From Ignavibacteria bacterium (lineage in GTDB: Bacteria; Bacteroidota; Ignavibacteria; Tepidaquicellales; OLB5), in NCBI GenBank assembly GCA_030835085.1, contig JAUQWQ010000052.1:1-49406 (forward strand): 49,406 nucleotides of DNA. The letters are read 5' to 3'. The position numbers and the translations under genes are program-made. Positions 9,984 to 18,507 of this stretch are shown here, one piece after another. Under the pieces are notes generated by a model. The model made no database searches and had not been told where the DNA came from. It saw only the letters and a list, made by a program, of their open reading frames with translations. Position 1 is the first letter of the stretch. Every line of letters starts with the position of its first letter.

Positions 9984-9987
9984 ATGA
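9754..9987 (+). CDS. possible small Lys/Asn-rich ORF
   Basis: 77 codons, rich in Lys and Asn. The stop overlaps the ATG of the cargo gene at 9984 by 4 bp, which can indicate translational coupling. The amino-acid composition is what an AT-rich spacer would give, I see no motif, and no ribosome-binding site precedes it. A leader peptide is possible but chance is more likely. Confidence 0.15.
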   Translation: MHCQNQTGMKKKKNVLPKSRSSFNRKKENGSLLNSDVLISRLLEPYFDSEYEILPGLMNSEKNNFKHIKQNKKKDKK

Positions 9988-11795
9988 AAAAACTTAAATT
10001 TTTAATTGCAGCATTTATATTTACTGTTGTATCAGTTTACGCACAAACTGATGCGACAAATGAATCAAAGCTTAACCAAAGCTCATTCAGGAACGTTTCT
10101 CCAAATGAAATTTCTGCGGAGAGTTTACCCCGTAATATTACTATTCCTGCGGCATTGTTAAACAGCTATAACGCTGCGATCGACAGCAGGAACCCGGAGA
10201 TGAAAAAACAAACGGCCGCTGAAATTGAAAAGTATTTGACAAAAGCAGAATTTACCGCCGAACCCATTGAAGTCGAGATAACCAAAGATCTGAATCCGCC
10301 TTTTATCAATGACTGGTACGGCTCTGATGTTCAGGTAACAAATTCCAGCGTTGCTGTTACAGGCGGCTACAGGCAGCTTGATCTTAAAAAAGGCGAAGAT
10401 GGCTGGATGTACCTTGCTGTGAACAGGCGCGGTATCCCCGGAATAAACGGGCAGATAACTGTATACCGCTCCGGCAACGGGGGAGCTGAATGGAGTACAG
10501 TGGCAAACATTACATCAATCACAGGTTATTTCGGGTCAATAACTATGCTTGTTGAAAGCAGAAATGAAAATGTGCCTGATTCAACAAGGATACTTGTATA
10601 TGCAACATTAAGTGCAAATTCAAACCTGAATGATGCATACCTTGTGTGTTCCTCTTTCAGAAGAGACGGCTCTGCTTCAAACTTCTTTAATGTTGCAAAT
10701 CCTTCTGCAGGCAACAGGTTCGTTTATCCCTCGGCATGCAGCGATGGTATGTTCTGGTCCAGCCTTACATTTATGCATGTAATTTTGAGAGAAGAAACTA
10801 ATTCCGGCGCTTTTGTTTCTATGCATCATTTCCGTTCCACCAGCTGGGGTGCAGTACATACTGTAGGGACCAACAGCAATAATGCTTTCGAAGACAGGTA
10901 CCCGGCTGCTGCCTTTTCCAATGAGGTCGGTAGTGATTCAGTTTACTTTGCTGTTGAAAGGGAAGTAGCCAATAACGAACACGAAATAAGGCTTTTCGCA
11001 ACGATGGAATTACCGTCAAACAATTTCAGTATAAGGTATATTACCGATGCAGCCCCGGGTACCATTTACGAAAGACCCGCAATAACTATTCAGCAGAGGG
11101 ATTTTTCGCTTCCGCAGAGGATACTTGTAACATGTACCAAAAATGACAGGGCAGTTTATCACTATTCCATCGATGGCGGAGCATTGTGGAATATAGATTT
11201 TGGCCTTGGACTTGCTTCTATGCCTGTTGATTTCACTTCATGCAGTTCAGATACATCAACTGCAAACGGCAAAGATTTTATATCCGCCTATGTTGATCTT
11301 AACGGTGATTCAGTGACTGTTAGACACGGTGAGCTTGGAAATTTGGGCACACCCATGTATAAAAAGAACGGTGTCGTAAGCACCGGTTCACTTGCACCTG
11401 TTTCAGCAATTTACTCCGAAGGAAATACAAAATACTCTGCATTTGCATATGCAGGCCTTGGACCTGCAGGAGTGTACTACAATATGGAATCTTTAGTTAC
11501 AGGAATTACACCTGTTTCAAATGAAGTTCCTAATGCATTCAGTCTTGAACAGAACTACCCGAATCCGTTTAACCCGGTTACCAACATTAAATTCGCAGTT
11601 GCGAAAAACGGATTGGTTACGTTGAAAATTTACGATATTTCCGGCAGGGAAGTAGCTCAGCTTGTAAATATGGAGCTTAATGCGGGCACTTATAACTTCG
11701 ATTTCAACGCTTCGCATCTGGCAAGCGGAATATATTTTTACAGATTGAATTCAAACAATTATGCCGATACCAAAAAAATGGTATTGGTTAAATAA
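9984..11795 (+). CDS. T9SS-sorted secreted protein (cargo family shared with 25461)
   Basis: 603 aa with a signal peptide (MKKLKFLIAAF...SVYAQT). A helical pro-region (LLNSYNAAIDSRNPEMKKQT) precedes a beta-rich domain with sialidase/BNR-like phrases (VYRSGNGGAEWSTV, YHYSIDGGALWNID), probably a beta-propeller. The type A sorting domain starts near residue 525 (QNYPNPFNPVTNI) and ends KKMVLVK. It is homologous along its whole length to the protein at 25461-27284; both contain NDWY, GGYRQ, DGWxYxAVN, SMLVESRN and DSTRIL. No catalytic residues are evident, so an enzymatic role is unproven. Both copies sit divergent to an SPYFN-family gene. Confidence 0.9.
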   Translation: MKKLKFLIAAFIFTVVSVYAQTDATNESKLNQSSFRNVSPNEISAESLPRNITIPAALLNSYNAAIDSRNPEMKKQTAAEIEKYLTKAEFTAEPIEVEITKDLNPPFINDWYGSDVQVTNSSVAVTGGYRQLDLKKGEDGWMYLAVNRRGIPGINGQITVYRSGNGGAEWSTVANITSITGYFGSITMLVESRNENVPDSTRILVYATLSANSNLNDAYLVCSSFRRDGSASNFFNVANPSAGNRFVYPSACSDGMFWSSLTFMHVILREETNSGAFVSMHHFRSTSWGAVHTVGTNSNNAFEDRYPAAAFSNEVGSDSVYFAVEREVANNEHEIRLFATMELPSNNFSIRYITDAAPGTIYERPAITIQQRDFSLPQRILVTCTKNDRAVYHYSIDGGALWNIDFGLGLASMPVDFTSCSSDTSTANGKDFISAYVDLNGDSVTVRHGELGNLGTPMYKKNGVVSTGSLAPVSAIYSEGNTKYSAFAYAGLGPAGVYYNMESLVTGITPVSNEVPNAFSLEQNYPNPFNPVTNIKFAVAKNGLVTLKIYDISGREVAQLVNMELNAGTYNFDFNASHLASGIYFYRLNSNNYADTKKMVLVK

Positions 11796-11810
11796 CAACC
11801 CCAATTGATT

Positions 11811-11841
11811 AAAAAGGCGGATAGAAATATCCGCCTTTTTT
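11811..11841 (+). terminator. Rho-independent terminator
   Basis: Thirteen-bp stem AAAAAGGCGGATA / TATCCGCCTTTTT with a GAAA tetraloop, followed by T residues, directly after the cargo gene. Confidence 0.9.
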
Positions 11842-11946
11842 ATTTCAGACTATACCTGAACAGATAATTATCATATTTTTTTCTAAGCGTAATCATTGAA
11901 ATCAGTTTGACGCTGTATTATTTTGAGATAAATTACTTAAAATGCC

Positions 11947-13758
11947 ATGAAGTCAATAAACAGTTTTTTTTATTTTATTGCCTTAATCAGTCAGTGTGTT
12001 TTCTCGGGTAGTTTTACAGTAAACAACGTAACACAGTTTCAGTCAGCTTTAAATTCTTGTGCTTCAAACGGGCAGAGCGATACTATCAATGTTCTTGCAG
12101 GCACATATAATGTAAATCCTTCTCTCACATTTATATCCAATGAAAATTATTCCCTGTTCATAAGAGGTACAGGCAGTCCGGTGCTTGATGGCGCGAATTT
12201 AAGGCAGGTACTGCAGCTTACAGCAAACTCACCTGCTGCTGATATTATTATAGAAGGTCTTACTATCCAGCACGGAAAGGCAGATTATGGCGGCGGCCTG
12301 AATATCCTGACCCAGGAGGCTGACATTATAGTAAGAAACTGCAGCATTAATGATAACACATCTAATTATGTTGCCGGCGGTGTTAACCTCTTTTCAAATA
12401 CAGGTTCAGTTTCGGTCAGCTCATGCTCTTTCAGCAGAAATTCATCGCCGAATACTTCGGGGTATCCGTACGGTAATGCCGGGGGCCTCTTCATACAGAC
12501 TGATGGCAGCGGAACAACCATCTCACTTTCAGGGTGTACTTTCACACAAAATACTTCGCAGCGCGATGCTGCCGGTGCAATGCTTTATCCTCTCGGAAGT
12601 AATTCCACTGTTATAGCGGAGCTGAATACTTTTGTTTCCAATACTGCAAAAGAATCCGGGGGTGGCTGCTGGATCAGGTGCCCGGGCGGTAATTCTGCAG
12701 TAAGATACAGAAGCAATGTTATGAACGGGAATTCATGCACTATTGGCGGCAACGGGGCAGGGACATATATACAGATCACCTCCGGCTCAATAGAGCTTTA
12801 CGATAATCAGTTTACGGGGAATAACTCTGTTTGGCAGGGAGGAGGATTGTGGGTTGAGCATAGCGGCGGCACAATGAATGTTTACCGGAACAGGTTTATT
12901 AATAACACTGCCGGTGAAACAGGCGCGGGGGCAAATCTTTTTCTTGATTACGGAACCGCTAAGATATATCACAACATTTTTAACCGCAACCGTTCTGGAC
13001 TTGCCGGCGGCGGAATAAATTTTTCCACAAACACAGGCAGTATCAATATTTTTAATAATACGTTATTTTCAAATACAGCTTCCGATGGCGGTGATGTGAA
13101 TTTGTACTTTGATAATTCTTCGGCACGATCATTTTTTATTAACAATATTTTATATAACAGCACTGAACCCGCCCTTTCATATTCAGGGCAGCAAACCGTA
13201 ACCGCGCGATATTGTGACATTATGGGAGGTACCGGCCAGCCGTGGTTTGGCACAGGGTGTTTTGACCGCTACCCTTATTTCCGTGATACCACAGGCGGTG
13301 ATTTCCACCTGCAGGATTCAGTTCATTGCGGCAGCCCACGCTACTCACCCTGTATCGATGCAGGCAATCCTGATATTACCGACAGCATTATCAATTGTTC
13401 ATGGGGTTTGAATCTTGCAAGAACAGATATGGGAGCATACGGGGGAAAAGGTAATATTCCTATAGGAATACACACTATTAACACAAATATTCCCGAACAA
13501 TTTACCCTTTACCAGAATTACCCCAACCCGTTCAACCCGGTTACAAAAATTAATTTTTCTGTTCCTTTTGCTGCATTTGTTAAGCTGGCAGTTTATGATA
13601 TCCTTGGTAGGGAAATTACTGTACTTGTTAATGAAGCATTGCTGCCGGGAATTTATAATGTAAATTGGAATGCTGATAAATATTCAATCGGCATATATTA
13701 TTATAAACTCGGGTCATTCAGTTTTACAGAAACAAAGAAAATGGTTTTGATCAAATAA
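11947..13758 (+). CDS. T9SS-sorted right-handed beta-helix protein
   Basis: 603 aa with a signal peptide (SINSFFYFIALISQCVFS). Residues about 60-430 repeat short strands of the type GGGLNI, VxNCSIxxN, GGVNLFSNTGSV and IYHNIFNRN, as in pectate-lyase-like or polymorphic outer-membrane beta-helices. SPCIDAGNPD followed by DMGAYGG is typical of the end of such helices. The sorting domain starts near residue 525 (QNYPNPFNPVTKI). No lyase active site is recognisable, so it is better called an adhesin- or binding-type surface protein than an enzyme. The sigma-54 activator gene begins 27 bp downstream without a terminator, so the two are probably co-transcribed. Confidence 0.9.
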   Translation: MKSINSFFYFIALISQCVFSGSFTVNNVTQFQSALNSCASNGQSDTINVLAGTYNVNPSLTFISNENYSLFIRGTGSPVLDGANLRQVLQLTANSPAADIIIEGLTIQHGKADYGGGLNILTQEADIIVRNCSINDNTSNYVAGGVNLFSNTGSVSVSSCSFSRNSSPNTSGYPYGNAGGLFIQTDGSGTTISLSGCTFTQNTSQRDAAGAMLYPLGSNSTVIAELNTFVSNTAKESGGGCWIRCPGGNSAVRYRSNVMNGNSCTIGGNGAGTYIQITSGSIELYDNQFTGNNSVWQGGGLWVEHSGGTMNVYRNRFINNTAGETGAGANLFLDYGTAKIYHNIFNRNRSGLAGGGINFSTNTGSINIFNNTLFSNTASDGGDVNLYFDNSSARSFFINNILYNSTEPALSYSGQQTVTARYCDIMGGTGQPWFGTGCFDRYPYFRDTTGGDFHLQDSVHCGSPRYSPCIDAGNPDITDSIINCSWGLNLARTDMGAYGGKGNIPIGIHTINTNIPEQFTLYQNYPNPFNPVTKINFSVPFAAFVKLAVYDILGREITVLVNEALLPGIYNVNWNADKYSIGIYYYKLGSFSFTETKKMVLIK

Positions 13759-13785: not shown

Positions 13786-15876
13786 ATGCGAAATATAAAT
13801 AATGGTGACCTGGATGCCCTGATTGAAGCCGCTCCTTTGGGAATTGTTGTATTCGACAAAAATGCAGTTATCACAAGATGGAACCCGGCAATGGAAAGGA
13901 TATTTGGCTGGAAAGAAAGTGAAGTTACCGGGAAAGCTTATAACCCTGTGCTCCCGGAGTCTGATGATTCGGTTCATAAATTAATGCGTGAAAAGCTACT
14001 GAGCGGCGGCAGCCTTAATGGTGAAGAATGCTTAAGGAAACGTAAAGACGGGAAGTTCATTAATGTTAAGACCCATTCTTCCTTATTAAAAGATATCTCC
14101 GGTAATATAACAGGAGTCATTGGTATTTATGATGATATAACCGAAGAGAAAAAGGAACATGAGAAGCTTATATGGAATGAACTGATGCTTCGTGAAATGG
14201 CTGAAAGTTCACGCAGCGGCTTTTATCTGGTAGATAGCAGGGATGATAAAATTCTTTATTATAATAAAAAATTTATTGAACTCTGGGATCTTGCTGAAAT
14301 TGAACCTGTTAAGGACCTCTCAAATTCTGGATTAATGAATATTTGCTCTGAAAAAGTTGAACATAAGGAAAAATTTGTTTCATCGCTTAAACTGTTGATG
14401 AATATAGATAACCAGGCAGTTTACGAAGATGAAATAATATTCAGGGATGGAAGGATATTCAGTTATTATACAACTCCGTTAATTGATGATAACAGGAATT
14501 ATCTTGGAAGGTTCTTCATGTTTGAAGATAAAACAGAATCGAAATTATTTGAAGCTTTGCTTATAAGTGAAAATGAGTATACCAGGTCTGTTGGTTCTTC
14601 AATTGATGCGATTATTCTTGCCGATAATTCAGGAAAAGTACTTATGGTTAACAAGTCTGCTGAAACGTTATTAAAAGTCAAAGCAGATAAGCTGTTAAAC
14701 ACTAAAATGCATGACTTTCTGCAGGTTGATGATTTTTTGACTGCATCAATTTTAACTTACGGCAGAACCGAAACAATTTTAAGAGAGATTAAAGATATAA
14801 ACGGAGAGACCAGGAATCTGGAATTCCATATCAGGCTGCACTCACACAATAAGATACAGATATCTGTATATGATGCCGGTAAACAGGTAAATAAAAGCAG
14901 GTCCCAAAGCAACTTTGAAGCCCTTCAAAGCCGCTTCATTTTTACAAGTGATGAGATGAAGAAGCTGAATTATGAAATAACACGTCTTGCAAATCTTGAT
15001 TTTGATGTGCTGATTGAAGGTGAAACAGGCGTTGGCAAAGACCTGGTTGCATCCCAGATACACTCCCGAAGCTCCAGGAAAAATAATATATTTCTGCCGG
15101 TATCTATCTCATCCCTTAGTGAAAGTCTAATTGAATCAGAATTATTTGGCCATGAAAAAGGAGCTTTTTCAGGTGCTGACAGGCAGATCATCGGTAAATT
15201 CGAAGCTGCAGATAAAGGGATATTATATATCCCGGAAATTTCCTCATTACCTGAAAGTATACAGCTTAAACTTCTTCATTTTATGCAGTATAAATCAATT
15301 ACAAGGGTCGGGCAGGATGCAAGAAAGGGTGAAGTAAATATAGATGTCAGGCTGATCATGGCAACTAATGAGAACCTTGAAAAGCTGGTAAGCTCCGGCA
15401 GACTGCGAAAAGATTTTTACTACAGAATAAGCGGTACTTCCTTAACTATTCCGCCTCTCAGAAAAAGGAAAGATGATATAATATCTATTGCTGAGTATTA
15501 CCTCGGGAAGTTTAAAACCGGTTTCCCCGGTAAACATTTTGAATTCTCGGATGAAGCAAAGAATATGCTGAGGGAGTATCCCTGGCACGGAAATGTAAGA
15601 GAGCTGGTTAGCTGTGTAAAAAATGTTATCTCATTTAACACTGAATCCGTTCTTGAGCCGCATCATTTCAGATACCTTCTGAGAAAGCATGATGAAGATA
15701 CGGATATAAATAACCCCGGGAATGAAATTGATTATATTACAGCTGAGAATGATTTCAAGAAAAATTACTTTAAAAAACTGCTTAATACTTCCAATAACAG
15801 AATATCTGAAGCCGCAAAGTCTGCAGGTATGACACCGCAGGGACTGCGAAAGGCGCTTAAAAAACTGGGGATGTGA
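13786..15876 (+). CDS. PAS-sensor sigma-54 activator (bEBP) with altered Walker B
   Basis: 696 aa, cytoplasmic. Three PAS-like domains (about 5-117, 130-245 and 258-365), an AAA+ sigma-54 interaction domain (about 378-605) and a C-terminal Fis-type helix-turn-helix (about 650-696; RISEAAKSAGMTPQGLRKAL). Walker A is GETGVGKD (Gly412-Asp419). The sigma-54 contact loop reads GAFSGA (459-464) for the usual GAFTGA. Walker B reads ILYIPEI: Pro483 stands where the Mg2+-binding Asp is expected, and Glu484 is kept. Sensor I (MATNENL), the arginine-finger region (GRLRKDFYYRI) and GNVRELV are present. No receiver domain is seen, so the signal probably enters through PAS. Palindromic sites and a sigma-54 promoter lie just downstream. 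Confidence 0.95.
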   Translation: MRNINNGDLDALIEAAPLGIVVFDKNAVITRWNPAMERIFGWKESEVTGKAYNPVLPESDDSVHKLMREKLLSGGSLNGEECLRKRKDGKFINVKTHSSLLKDISGNITGVIGIYDDITEEKKEHEKLIWNELMLREMAESSRSGFYLVDSRDDKILYYNKKFIELWDLAEIEPVKDLSNSGLMNICSEKVEHKEKFVSSLKLLMNIDNQAVYEDEIIFRDGRIFSYYTTPLIDDNRNYLGRFFMFEDKTESKLFEALLISENEYTRSVGSSIDAIILADNSGKVLMVNKSAETLLKVKADKLLNTKMHDFLQVDDFLTASILTYGRTETILREIKDINGETRNLEFHIRLHSHNKIQISVYDAGKQVNKSRSQSNFEALQSRFIFTSDEMKKLNYEITRLANLDFDVLIEGETGVGKDLVASQIHSRSSRKNNIFLPVSISSLSESLIESELFGHEKGAFSGADRQIIGKFEAADKGILYIPEISSLPESIQLKLLHFMQYKSITRVGQDARKGEVNIDVRLIMATNENLEKLVSSGRLRKDFYYRISGTSLTIPPLRKRKDDIISIAEYYLGKFKTGFPGKHFEFSDEAKNMLREYPWHGNVRELVSCVKNVISFNTESVLEPHHFRYLLRKHDEDTDINNPGNEIDYITAENDFKKNYFKKLLNTSNNRISEAAKSAGMTPQGLRKALKKLGM

Positions 15877-15910
15877 TACCTCTTACTTAAGTAAAGATTT
15901 AAAAATTCAT

Positions 15911-15962
15911 GCGGAAACTTCTGTTTCCGCTGTTTCCCGTTAAATGGAAACACCTGTTTCCC
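15911..15962. promoter_or_regulatory. enhancer sites for the sigma-54 activator (GGAAAC-N4-GTTTCC, two copies)
   Basis: A perfect palindrome, GCGGAAAC and GTTTCCGC round TTCT, occupies 15911-15930. A second GGAAAC-N4-GTTTCC is at 15946-15961, its centre 33 bp from the first, about three helical turns. A further GTTTCC at 15932-15937 pairs with 15946-15951. The cluster is about 75-125 bp upstream of the predicted transcription start of the sigma-54 promoter, the usual place for activator binding. No T-run follows, which argues against a terminator. Confidence 0.75.
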
Positions 15963-16010
15963 TTTCTATATAAAAATCATGATTAAAAAAAATTTTCACC
16001 GAATAATTAT

Positions 16011-16026
16011 TGGCACGATAATTGCT
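16011..16026 (+). promoter_or_regulatory. sigma-54 (RpoN) -24/-12 promoter
   Basis: TGGCACG, 4 nt, TTGCT: matches the sigma-54 consensus at every conserved base, with exactly 10 nt between the GG and GC dinucleotides. Transcription would start near 16036-16038, about 20 nt before the ATG at 16058. Confidence 0.9.
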
Positions 16027-16057
16027 TTTCATAGAATATCAGAAGTTAGTGTAAACT

Positions 16058-16267
16058 ATGAAAACCAAATCTGTAAATAAAGAACGATATAAATTATGTC
16101 CCAATTGCGGTAATTTTATGTCAATTAGTGAACAGGATACGTATTGTTACTTATGCGGAGTAAAAATGATCGATTCATGTCCTTCTTGCAATGAACCCAT
16201 AATTTACCCGACTTCTGTATTTTGCCCGGTTTGCGGAAAAAAACTTGTTGCGTTAAAGAATGAATGA
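16058..16267 (+). CDS. double zinc-ribbon small protein
   Basis: 69 aa with two treble-clef or ribbon-type units: CPNCGNF...CYLCGVK and CPSCNEP...CPVCGKK, eight cysteines in four CxxC pairs. No membrane segment. It is the first gene after the sigma-54 promoter, so probably the first product of the regulon. Such double zinc ribbons usually mediate protein or nucleic-acid contacts; a specific role cannot be assigned. Confidence 0.85.
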   Translation: MKTKSVNKERYKLCPNCGNFMSISEQDTYCYLCGVKMIDSCPSCNEPIIYPTSVFCPVCGKKLVALKNE

Positions 16268-16332
16268 TTCTGTTTGAAAATCTAATCCCTGAAATTGATA
16301 TATATTTTACTAATAACTTAAAATCTAATATC

Positions 16333-16725
16333 ATGAATAAAAAATTAGCATTTGCATTATCTGTATTTCTGATTTTACTGTGGAGCTGTAATGATGATAA
16401 CGGTACCGGTATCAATCAGCTGGGGACAGGCGGAAATGTTACTTTCACAATGCAGGGTACCGGTAACCAAACCTCGTATGACTTCTATTTCAAACCCAGT
16501 GTAGATGTTAAGATAGATAAAATTATCGCGTTATTACCCGCGCAGAATTTTACTGATACTGCTGCGAATCCAAATACAAACTATGTTTTCAGCAAAGATT
16601 CCAGTTATACGTGGTACTCATACACCGGTGTTACATCAGCTCAGCAATGGACATTCCGTTTTTCAGGCGTATTGGTAAGTAATAACAATCCATTTAACGA
16701 AAGCGCTGATTTTACTGTACCGTAA
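16333..16725 (+). CDS. small secreted lipoprotein, function unknown
   Basis: 130 aa from ATG 16333; an in-frame ATG at 16264 would add 23 residues before the signal peptide and overlap the zinc-ribbon gene, so the later start is preferred. The signal MNKKLAFALSVFLILLWSC ends in a Cys with NDDNG after it, a lipoprotein pattern. The mature part is beta-rich and resembles no family I can name. It is the second gene of the predicted sigma-54 operon and is followed after 56 bp by a beta-barrel gene. Confidence 0.75.
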   Translation: MNKKLAFALSVFLILLWSCNDDNGTGINQLGTGGNVTFTMQGTGNQTSYDFYFKPSVDVKIDKIIALLPAQNFTDTAANPNTNYVFSKDSSYTWYSYTGVTSAQQWTFRFSGVLVSNNNPFNESADFTVP

Positions 16726-16781
16726 TATTGTTATTTGCATAACTTCATATACTTTTTTAAAATATTCCAAAGGAGAAAAAA

Positions 16782-17399
16782 ATGAAACAAATGAGTAAAA
16801 TTGCAGCAATATTTTTTATTTTGTCTTCAATATCAGTATTTTCACAGCCAAGTATTGAGTTAGGACTTGAAGGCGGCCTGAACCTGGCTAATGTTTCAAT
16901 CACCCCCTCGCAGACTTCAAACTCACGTACCGGCTTAATAGTTGGCGGTGTTATAGATATTGGTATTTCCAATAGTATTGGTGTTACCGGTGGCTTAAGA
17001 TATATTATGAAAGGCTTCCAGGTTACGAACCAGGGGTATACATTTACCGATAAGCTGAATTATTTAGAAGTTCCGGTTCTGTTGAAAGTGAAATTCCCCC
17101 TCACTGAGATAAAACCGTATGTAATTGGCGGACCGGTTTTAGGTATCCGTGTTTCTGCTAGCGAAGAACAAAGCGGAGGCGGGCAGAGCGCAGATGTAGA
17201 TGCTTCAAGTGCCTATGAATCTATTGATTTTGGCCTGTTATTTGGTGCCGGAATGGATTTTAAAGTTGCCCCTAAAACAGATCTGTTCTTACAGGGTGGT
17301 TATGCATTCGGTCTTTCGAACATCTGGAAACAGACTACTACTGTGACAGTGAAAAATTATGGTATTCAGATAACCGGTGGAGTAAAATTCAAACTTTAA
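16782..17399 (+). CDS. outer-membrane beta-barrel protein (PorT/OmpW-like porin family)
   Basis: 205 aa with a signal peptide (ISSISVFSQPS) and a clear ribosome-binding site (AAAGGAG, 7 nt before ATG). Alternating strands such as LGLEGGLNLANVSITPSQ, VTGGLRYIMKGFQV, FLQGGYAFGLSNI and a terminal GIQITGGVKFKL fit an eight-stranded outer-membrane barrel of the 'outer membrane beta-barrel domain' type, ending in a hydrophobic C-terminal strand. It is last in the sigma-54 operon, suggesting that the regulon remodels the cell envelope. Confidence 0.85.
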   Translation: MKQMSKIAAIFFILSSISVFSQPSIELGLEGGLNLANVSITPSQTSNSRTGLIVGGVIDIGISNSIGVTGGLRYIMKGFQVTNQGYTFTDKLNYLEVPVLLKVKFPLTEIKPYVIGGPVLGIRVSASEEQSGGGQSADVDASSAYESIDFGLLFGAGMDFKVAPKTDLFLQGGYAFGLSNIWKQTTTVTVKNYGIQITGGVKFKL

Positions 17400-17468: not shown

Positions 17469-17505
17469 GCCGGTACTTTCTTTTGTGAAGTGCCGGCTTT
17501 GTTTT
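17469..17505 (+). terminator. Rho-independent terminator of the sigma-54 operon
   Basis: Stem GCCGGTACTT with AAGTGCCGGC (one G-T pair), then TTTGTTTT. Confidence 0.8.
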
Positions 17506-18129: not shown

Positions 18130-18507
18130 CTATTTTACACTCTCAACTTTATATCCCGCTGATGTGATAGCTTCTTTTATAGCATCGGGATTTGTTTTCG
18201 CTGGATCAAAGGATGCCTTAACCGTATTTGATTTAAAATCAGCCATTACATCTTTTACTCCATCAACTTTCTTAACCTTGCTTTTAATGGTGTTCTCACA
18301 TCCCGTACATGTCATTCCAGATGTATGTATCTCAACCGCCTTATCTGTAGCTGATACTTCAAGAGTTTTGCTCTCGTTTTTCTGTTCAGTGTTTGTTGTC
18401 TTGTTATCGGTTTTGGTTTCGGTGGTTGATTTGTCATCTGTTTTACCGCAGCCAATTATCAGTACAGCAATAAACATGGCTATAATAGAAGTGAACTTGG
18501 TTTTCAT
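18130..18507 (-). CDS. heavy-metal-associated (HMA) domain lipoprotein, MerP-like
   Basis: 125 aa. A lipoprotein signal with lipid-carrying Cys20 (VLIIGC) is followed by a low-complexity Thr/Lys/Asp linker (about 22-48) and a C-terminal HMA domain with the metal-binding motif GMTCTGCENT (Cys67, Cys70) and the typical ending ITSAGYKVESV. It would bind Cu+ or another soft metal in the periplasm; anchoring on a lipid tail differs from soluble MerP. A TAnnTTTG-like box (TATTTTTG) lies on the minus strand at 18537-18544. Confidence 0.88.
   Translation of the reverse strand: MKTKFTSIIAMFIAVLIIGCGKTDDKSTTETKTDNKTTNTEQKNESKTLEVSATDKAVEIHTSGMTCTGCENTIKSKVKKVDGVKDVMADFKSNTVKASFDPAKTNPDAIKEAITSAGYKVESVK

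Follow-up and report, generated by a model that had tools for sequence, protein, structure and literature searches.

A sigma-54 activator clade of Ignavibacteria: a variant ATPase site and a predicted zinc-ribbon target

In an Ignavibacteria bacterium, a gene for a putative sigma-54 activator is followed by two inverted repeats, a -24/-12 promoter and the gene for a small zinc-ribbon protein (ZR), all on contig JAUQWQ010000052.1 of assembly GCA_030835085.1 (49,406 nucleotides; the whole stretch that was analysed, called the window here). This arrangement raises the questions of whether the activator, a bacterial enhancer-binding protein (bEBP), serves a single dedicated promoter, which of the genes behind that promoter is its target, and how a bEBP whose ATPase site departs from the standard one could open it.

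Results

Palindromes and promoter at the window locus

The activator gene (13786-15876, forward strand) is an open reading frame (ORF) for 696 amino acids with three N-terminal PAS-like domains, an AAA+ domain and a C-terminal Fis-type helix-turn-helix (HTH) encoded at 15763-15867 on the same strand (TPQGLRKALKKLG; Pfam HTH_8, residues 660-694). Pfam matches to PAS (8.9e-33), Sigma54_activat (PF00158, 1.4e-54), AAA_lid_14 and HTH_8 (0.001) agree with a first-pass annotation of the same DNA, which had named a PAS-AAA-Fis activator gene, and the solved structures nearest to the protein are NtrC1, ZraR, NifA, FleQ and PspF. As that annotation had also read, two exact copies of GGAAAC-N4-GTTTCC lie at 15911-15961. 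The first predicted activator palindrome (GCGGAAACTTCTGTTTCCGC, 15911-15930, core 15913-15928) has 8-bp arms when the flanking GC is counted, and the second is GGAAACACCTGTTTCC (15946-15961). The two are 33 bp apart, with centres about 117 and 84 bp 5' of a transcription start predicted near 16037. The -24/-12 promoter itself (TGGCACGATAATTGCT, 16011-16026, forward strand) matches at 12/12 scored positions and had rightly been called a consensus element. The first gene behind it (16058-16264, forward strand) encodes ZR, a stand-alone double zinc ribbon of about 69 amino acids (Pfam DZR, PF12773, 2.4e-9).

A whole-genome pattern search, which the first-pass annotation had proposed, found just two exact copies of GGAAAC-N4-GTTTCC in 4.05 Mb, namely the pair at 15913-15961, and nine one-mismatch sites elsewhere, which is the rate of the reversed control. 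For the promoter, TGGCACGATAATTGC at 16011-16025 is the sole -24/-12 match with at most one mismatch in the window, where about three are expected by chance, and exact TGGCACG-N4-TTGC has one further copy in the genome. The -24/-12 match by itself is without significance, which is supplied by its position and conservation. The genome has one rpoN gene. In another genome, G477, GGGAAC-N4-GTTCCC occurs three times, all upstream of ZR. Uniqueness was checked genome-wide in these two genomes, and for the others we infer a single target.

The zinc-ribbon gene is the conserved target

Searches with hidden Markov models (HMMs) in the phylum and the class found relatives of the window activator in 36/391 genomes of the class (a sample that is not exhaustive, with taxa given as family codes such as f2 and f3). 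These relatives form a deep clade of 39 loci, with two contig loci counted once; the two closest to the window activator, from a scan of genome contigs, share 43-45% identity with it. A small four-CxxC protein, ZR, is encoded after the activator at 20 loci and upstream of it at the locus L080. ZR has four CxxC knuckles, and its eight cysteines are invariant in 20 homologues. It was present in 31/36 genomes with the activator compared to 25/355 of the other genomes (p = 2e-25, a value that is only indicative as the genomes are related and kinship was ignored). Most of the genomes without a linked ZR have exactly one ZR elsewhere, and a search for ZR in six congeners of the window genome that lack the activator found none.

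Between the activator and ZR lie AAC-N4-GTT inverted repeats, often paired, together with a GG-N10-GC element. By a strict count, the 20 upstream regions of linked ZR genes contain 19 palindrome sites compared to a mean of 0.37 and a maximum of 3 in shuffled sequences, and 7/20 of these regions contain at least two sites, against a maximum of one such region in 500 shuffles. A strict palindrome was found upstream of ZR at 16/33 loci in activator genomes and at 1/27 in the others (p = 1e-4), while the corresponding numbers for a strong -24/-12 element were 21/33 and 3/27 (p = 5e-5). With a slightly relaxed definition, palindrome pairs were found at 17/33 ZR loci of activator genomes, and 15 of these 17 are spaced 21-24 bp; the exceptions are the window, with its 33 bp, and G477, where the spacing is wider. 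Within the window's own order, ZR is unlinked from the activator in five genomes, yet GGAAAC-type pairs 22-24 bp apart (e.g., GGAAACAGTTGTTTCC/GGAAACGTTTGTTTCC) and a -24/-12-like element are still present upstream of it. Since in all five the activator gene lies elsewhere, the sites go with the target, and since pairs and promoter sit upstream of ZR even when it is unlinked, ZR is the conserved target. Taken together, these results suggest that the activator, the two palindromes, the -24/-12 promoter and ZR very probably form a dedicated one-target sigma-54 switch.

In family f2, the ZR mRNA leaders contain a two-tier hairpin (CCTCCCTAATTGCCCCCTTG...ACCCAATC...CAGGGGGGAAATAAGGGAGG) that is conserved between the promoter and ZR (L144:1351-1434, L142:774-844, the L147 leader, L145 and L148). 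An exact-pattern search found it once per genome in three genomes, always at ZR, and no credible Rfam match identified it as a known RNA.

The activator clade has an altered ATPase site

The controls in an alignment of the 39 clade members were 10 canonical activators of the same genus, and the key ATPase columns align to NtrC1 without gaps. The Walker-B Asp is replaced by Pro in 38/39 members and by Ser in one, compared to Asp in 10/10 controls. The glutamate-switch Asn is Ser, Pro or Ala in 37/39 members (Asn in 9/10 controls), and the Walker-A Glu is Asp in all 39 (Glu in 10/10 controls). In the window protein, whose codons lie on the forward strand, alignment places these changes at Pro483 in Walker B (LYIPE, 15232-15234; PspF D107), at Ser440 where the switch Asn is expected, also by alignment to NtrC1 (15103-15105; PspF N64), and at Asp419 in Walker A (GETGVGKD, 15040-15042; the counterpart of PspF Glu43). 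Since the Asp of the hhhhDE motif is missing, we describe the clade as a variant and not as standard bEBPs. In a tree built without these three trait columns, the 39 members fall on one side of a branch with a support of 100 in the Shimodaira-Hasegawa-like approximate likelihood ratio test (SH-aLRT). The rest of the catalytic machinery is retained: the Walker-A Lys, the catalytic Walker-B Glu, both R-fingers (RxDxxxR), the R-hand Asp and the sensor II Arg are each present in 39/39 members. The L1 loop that contacts sigma-54, GAFSGA in the window (15160-15177, forward strand), has Thr or Ser as its fourth residue in all 39, and L007 and a few other members have small changes in the motif.

The matching or most similar single changes in PspF reduce the Vmax from 39.5 per min in the wild type to 0.23 for D107A (about 0.6%), 1.50 for N64Q (about 4%) and 22.3 for E43D (PMC3419264 Table 1). 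In addition, ATP-bound PspF E108Q, which has less than 1% ATPase activity, can remodel the closed complex and does so best on pre-opened DNA (PMC4132715). By analogy, the clade would either compensate chemically, or hydrolyse slowly, or have given up hydrolysis; the first two options are favoured because the catalytic Glu and the residues provided in trans are invariant. The clade activator most likely still works on ATP, as indicated by the invariant catalytic Glu, R-hand residues, sensor II Arg and Walker-A Lys. One plausible hypothesis is that Mg2+, with the Walker-B Asp gone, is now coordinated by the Walker-A Asp. Another possibility is a ring that turns over very slowly and acts as a long-lived ATP-bound switch. 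We give about even credence to the combined proposal that this clade, with the Walker-B Asp, the switch Asn and the Walker-A Glu all replaced, still drives sigma-54 promoters by a different nucleotide mechanism (a shift of the Mg2+ ligand, or slow or ATP-binding-only remodelling) and has one ZR target.

The same replacements could also mean that the protein is a pseudo-ATPase, which would bind the palindromes and sigma-54 but would be unable to remodel the promoter alone. Its role would be that of an antagonist, a repressor or one component of mixed rings with a canonical bEBP of the same cell. Such a role is consistent with the near-complete absence of the Walker-B Asp and switch Asn from the clade, with the low rates of PspF D107A and N64Q, and with the five other sigma-54 activator-like matches in the window genome, of which the four readable ones have the canonical DE. 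However, the complete retention of the Walker-A Lys, catalytic Glu, R-fingers, R-hand Asp and sensor II Arg would be unexpected if hydrolysis had been abandoned, almost all members have GAF[TS]GA, the target has retained -24/-12 promoters, and no conserved canonical partner gene was seen adjoining the activator. We consider a pseudo-ATPase unlikely, though a serious candidate. No published precedent for a natural loss of the Walker-B Asp in bEBPs was found in open-licence papers, and to that extent this altered-ATPase branch was previously unnoticed.

Sensors differ among clade members

The sigma-54 interaction AAA+ domain was found in 37/37 scanned members, a receiver domain (Response_reg) in 28/37 and PAS in 1/37, the window copy. 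The domains given in the first-pass annotation thus stand, but the protein is not an ordinary PAS-type bEBP, given the altered ATPase site and a PAS domain that is unusual in its clade. An FG-GAP/UnbV protein with a C-terminal histidine-kinase ATPase domain accompanies the activator at 14 loci and a PAS kinase at 12. Since receiver, PAS and kinase partners vary among the relatives, the DNA-binding and ATPase parts are kept and the sensor is exchanged. The FG-GAP repeat plus UnbV/ASPIC kinases (about 1240-1375 amino acids; L006:1701-5672, L007:1728-5684 and 12 other loci) are mostly encoded directly upstream of the activator. From its domains, this histidine-kinase fusion appears to be an unusual sensor kinase, and nothing on FG-GAP/UnbV kinases was found in open-licence papers. 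The activator at L007:5812-7212 has WAFTGA in place of GAFTGA in L1, which is either a sequencing error or a genuine change.

An HMM search of 12 congeners of the window genome found no clade activator, although the tree places the window copy with its own order. Horizontal acquisition of the window copy is not favoured, as it is sister to members of that order (branch SH-aLRT 94, not starred).

Lineage-specific cargo follows the zinc-ribbon gene

In the window, ZR is followed by a secreted lipoprotein-like protein with an LLWSC lipobox (16333-16725, forward strand; the ORF spans 16264-16725 and the internal Met at 16333 is the likely start), for which a Pfam scan gave no match, and by an outer-membrane beta-barrel (16782-17399, forward strand; OMP_b-brl_2, PF13568, 3.8e-25). 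These Pfam matches and ORFs support the zinc-ribbon, lipoprotein and beta-barrel operon of the first-pass annotation. A hairpin scan also found a terminator-like hairpin with a T tail behind it, at 17469-17497 (forward strand), so that the end given in the annotation, 17399, is the last stop codon and not the terminator. The cargo is a PEGA lipoprotein at L007, proteins with type IX secretion system (T9SS) tails at L097 and L073, and CsgE, CsgF, CsgG and a curlin-repeat protein at L085; the CsgE/F/G set is absent from the window operon. The genes behind ZR in four f2 genomes encode RNase HII and a YraN-like protein (names from sequence inspection). Since the downstream genes differ between families, the envelope operon is a lineage-specific cargo behind a conserved ZR.

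It might be argued that the envelope genes are the main output and ZR is incidental, as the first gene after ZR looks secreted in 27/31 cases (by a crude signal-peptide heuristic, with four of them RNase HII false positives) and csgE-csgF-csgG follow ZR in one family. This is improbable when the cargo differs by family, when the four f2 genomes with RNase HII and the YraN-like gene have no envelope genes there, and when ZR is the only conserved target gene. The circuit of activator, palindromes, promoter and operon that the first-pass annotation had drawn is upheld by phylogenetic footprinting across divergent relatives, including the five unlinked genomes, except that the envelope operon is not its conserved output. 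ZR itself may be a small protein that regulates surface-protein production or serves it as an adaptor; nothing on this zinc ribbon with RpoN was found in open-licence papers.

At L085:7050-9714, the ZR gene heads a curli assembly operon behind a -24/-12 element, which suggests sigma-54 control of curli in this family (f56). Directly 5' of the window activator (9984-13758), two secreted proteins of 603 amino acids have NYPNPFNP-type T9SS tails, and T9SS-tailed proteins like this pair are ZR-operon cargo in other families. Just 3' of the window operon, on the opposite strand (18130-18507, reverse strand), lies a gene for a lipoprotein with a heavy-metal-associated (GMTCTGC) motif.

Weighing the proposed circuit

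Another regulator might bind the palindromes while the adjacent activator controls something else, and adjacency is indeed weak evidence in genomes with several bEBPs. However, the palindromes at ZR track the presence of the activator clade in the genome, and L006 and L007, which share PQGLRK in the HTH with the window activator, have the same palindrome core; we regard this possibility as very unlikely. It is hardly credible that the palindromes terminate transcription of the activator gene or arose as inverted repeats by chance, and that the promoter match is accidental: the hairpin scan scores both palindromes as terminator-like, and one -24/-12 match with one mismatch is no more than chance predicts for 49 kb, but the T-tracts are poor, the regular 21-24 bp pair spacing speaks against chance, and the palindromes track the ZR promoter and not the activator 3' end at L006 (about 0.7 kb), at L083 (about 1.4 kb) and at the five unlinked loci, which largely refute the terminator reading and led us to reject it.

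Several observations weigh against the dedicated one-target switch with an active, altered ATPase. Roughly half of the loci with the activator, above all in f13 and f10, have no recognisable palindrome core, so that the site either drifts or differs there. The loss of the Walker-B Asp predicts a very low ATPase activity by analogy with PspF D107A (PMC3419264). ZR is present in 25 genomes without the clade activator, and a canonical bEBP lies near ZR in at least 8 inspected genomes that lack the clade activator. Because of the latter, ZR is not an exclusive partner of the clade.

Among the families with ZR but without the clade activator are f3 and f4. Four f4 cases with a canonical activator near ZR also have an FG-GAP-type kinase homologue, and several ZR genes of f3/f4-type genomes still have promoter-like GG-N10-G elements. 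It seems that sigma-54 control of ZR extends beyond the clade, with at least two activator lineages serving the gene. At L247 and L248 (f3), two neighbouring ZR paralogues occur in the vicinity of a canonical response-regulator bEBP and of small pilin-like proteins, and these paralogues have no AAC-N4-GTT palindromes. The idea that the ZR partnership is older than the Walker-B change was unsupported, with the canonical bEBPs near ZR falling in separate tree lineages.

Discussion

The features described above suggest how the switch could work. The PAS domains of the window activator would sense a cytoplasmic signal, and the Fis-type HTH would bind both GGAAAC-N4-GTTTCC palindromes as a pair of dimers on one helix face. 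The activator ring would then form and the DNA would loop to bring it to sigma-54 RNA polymerase at 16011-16026, where the GAFSGA loop would open the promoter and turn on ZR and, in the window lineage, also the co-transcribed lipoprotein and barrel genes.

The clade resembles bEBPs of the NtrC/PspF type (AAA+ clade 6) in its AAA+ domain with GAF[TS]GA, Walker-A Lys, catalytic Glu, R-hand and sensor II, in its Fis-type HTH, and in the paired upstream dyads with a -24/-12 promoter; it is unlike them in having the Walker-B Pro, the switch Ser, Pro or Ala, and the Walker-A Asp. In the PspF-psp system, dyad sites separate the activator gene from the adjacent sigma-54 target that it controls, and the window activator likewise lies next to its own target with dyads between. 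In contrast to psp, the clade target is a stand-alone double zinc ribbon, and the sensor varies from PAS in the window to a receiver with an FG-GAP/UnbV or PAS kinase in the relatives. VpsR and FleQ are degenerate bEBPs with an altered sigma-54 contact loop and/or working with other sigma factors. The clade shares with them a departure from the usual active-site or L1 motifs of bEBPs, but it keeps L1, alters the nucleotide site and has -24/-12 promoters at its target.

Whether promoter opening needs full hydrolysis or ATP binding alone has so far been probed with the engineered PspF variants E108Q, D107A and N64Q. A natural clade that is changed at the D107 and N64 positions across many genera, with an identifiable promoter and target, makes this question testable in evolved proteins. 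The locus would represent a minimal sigma-54 circuit with a single target, whose sensors and surface-protein cargo (which includes curli in one family) are interchangeable and whose core output would be a conserved, uncharacterised zinc-ribbon protein.

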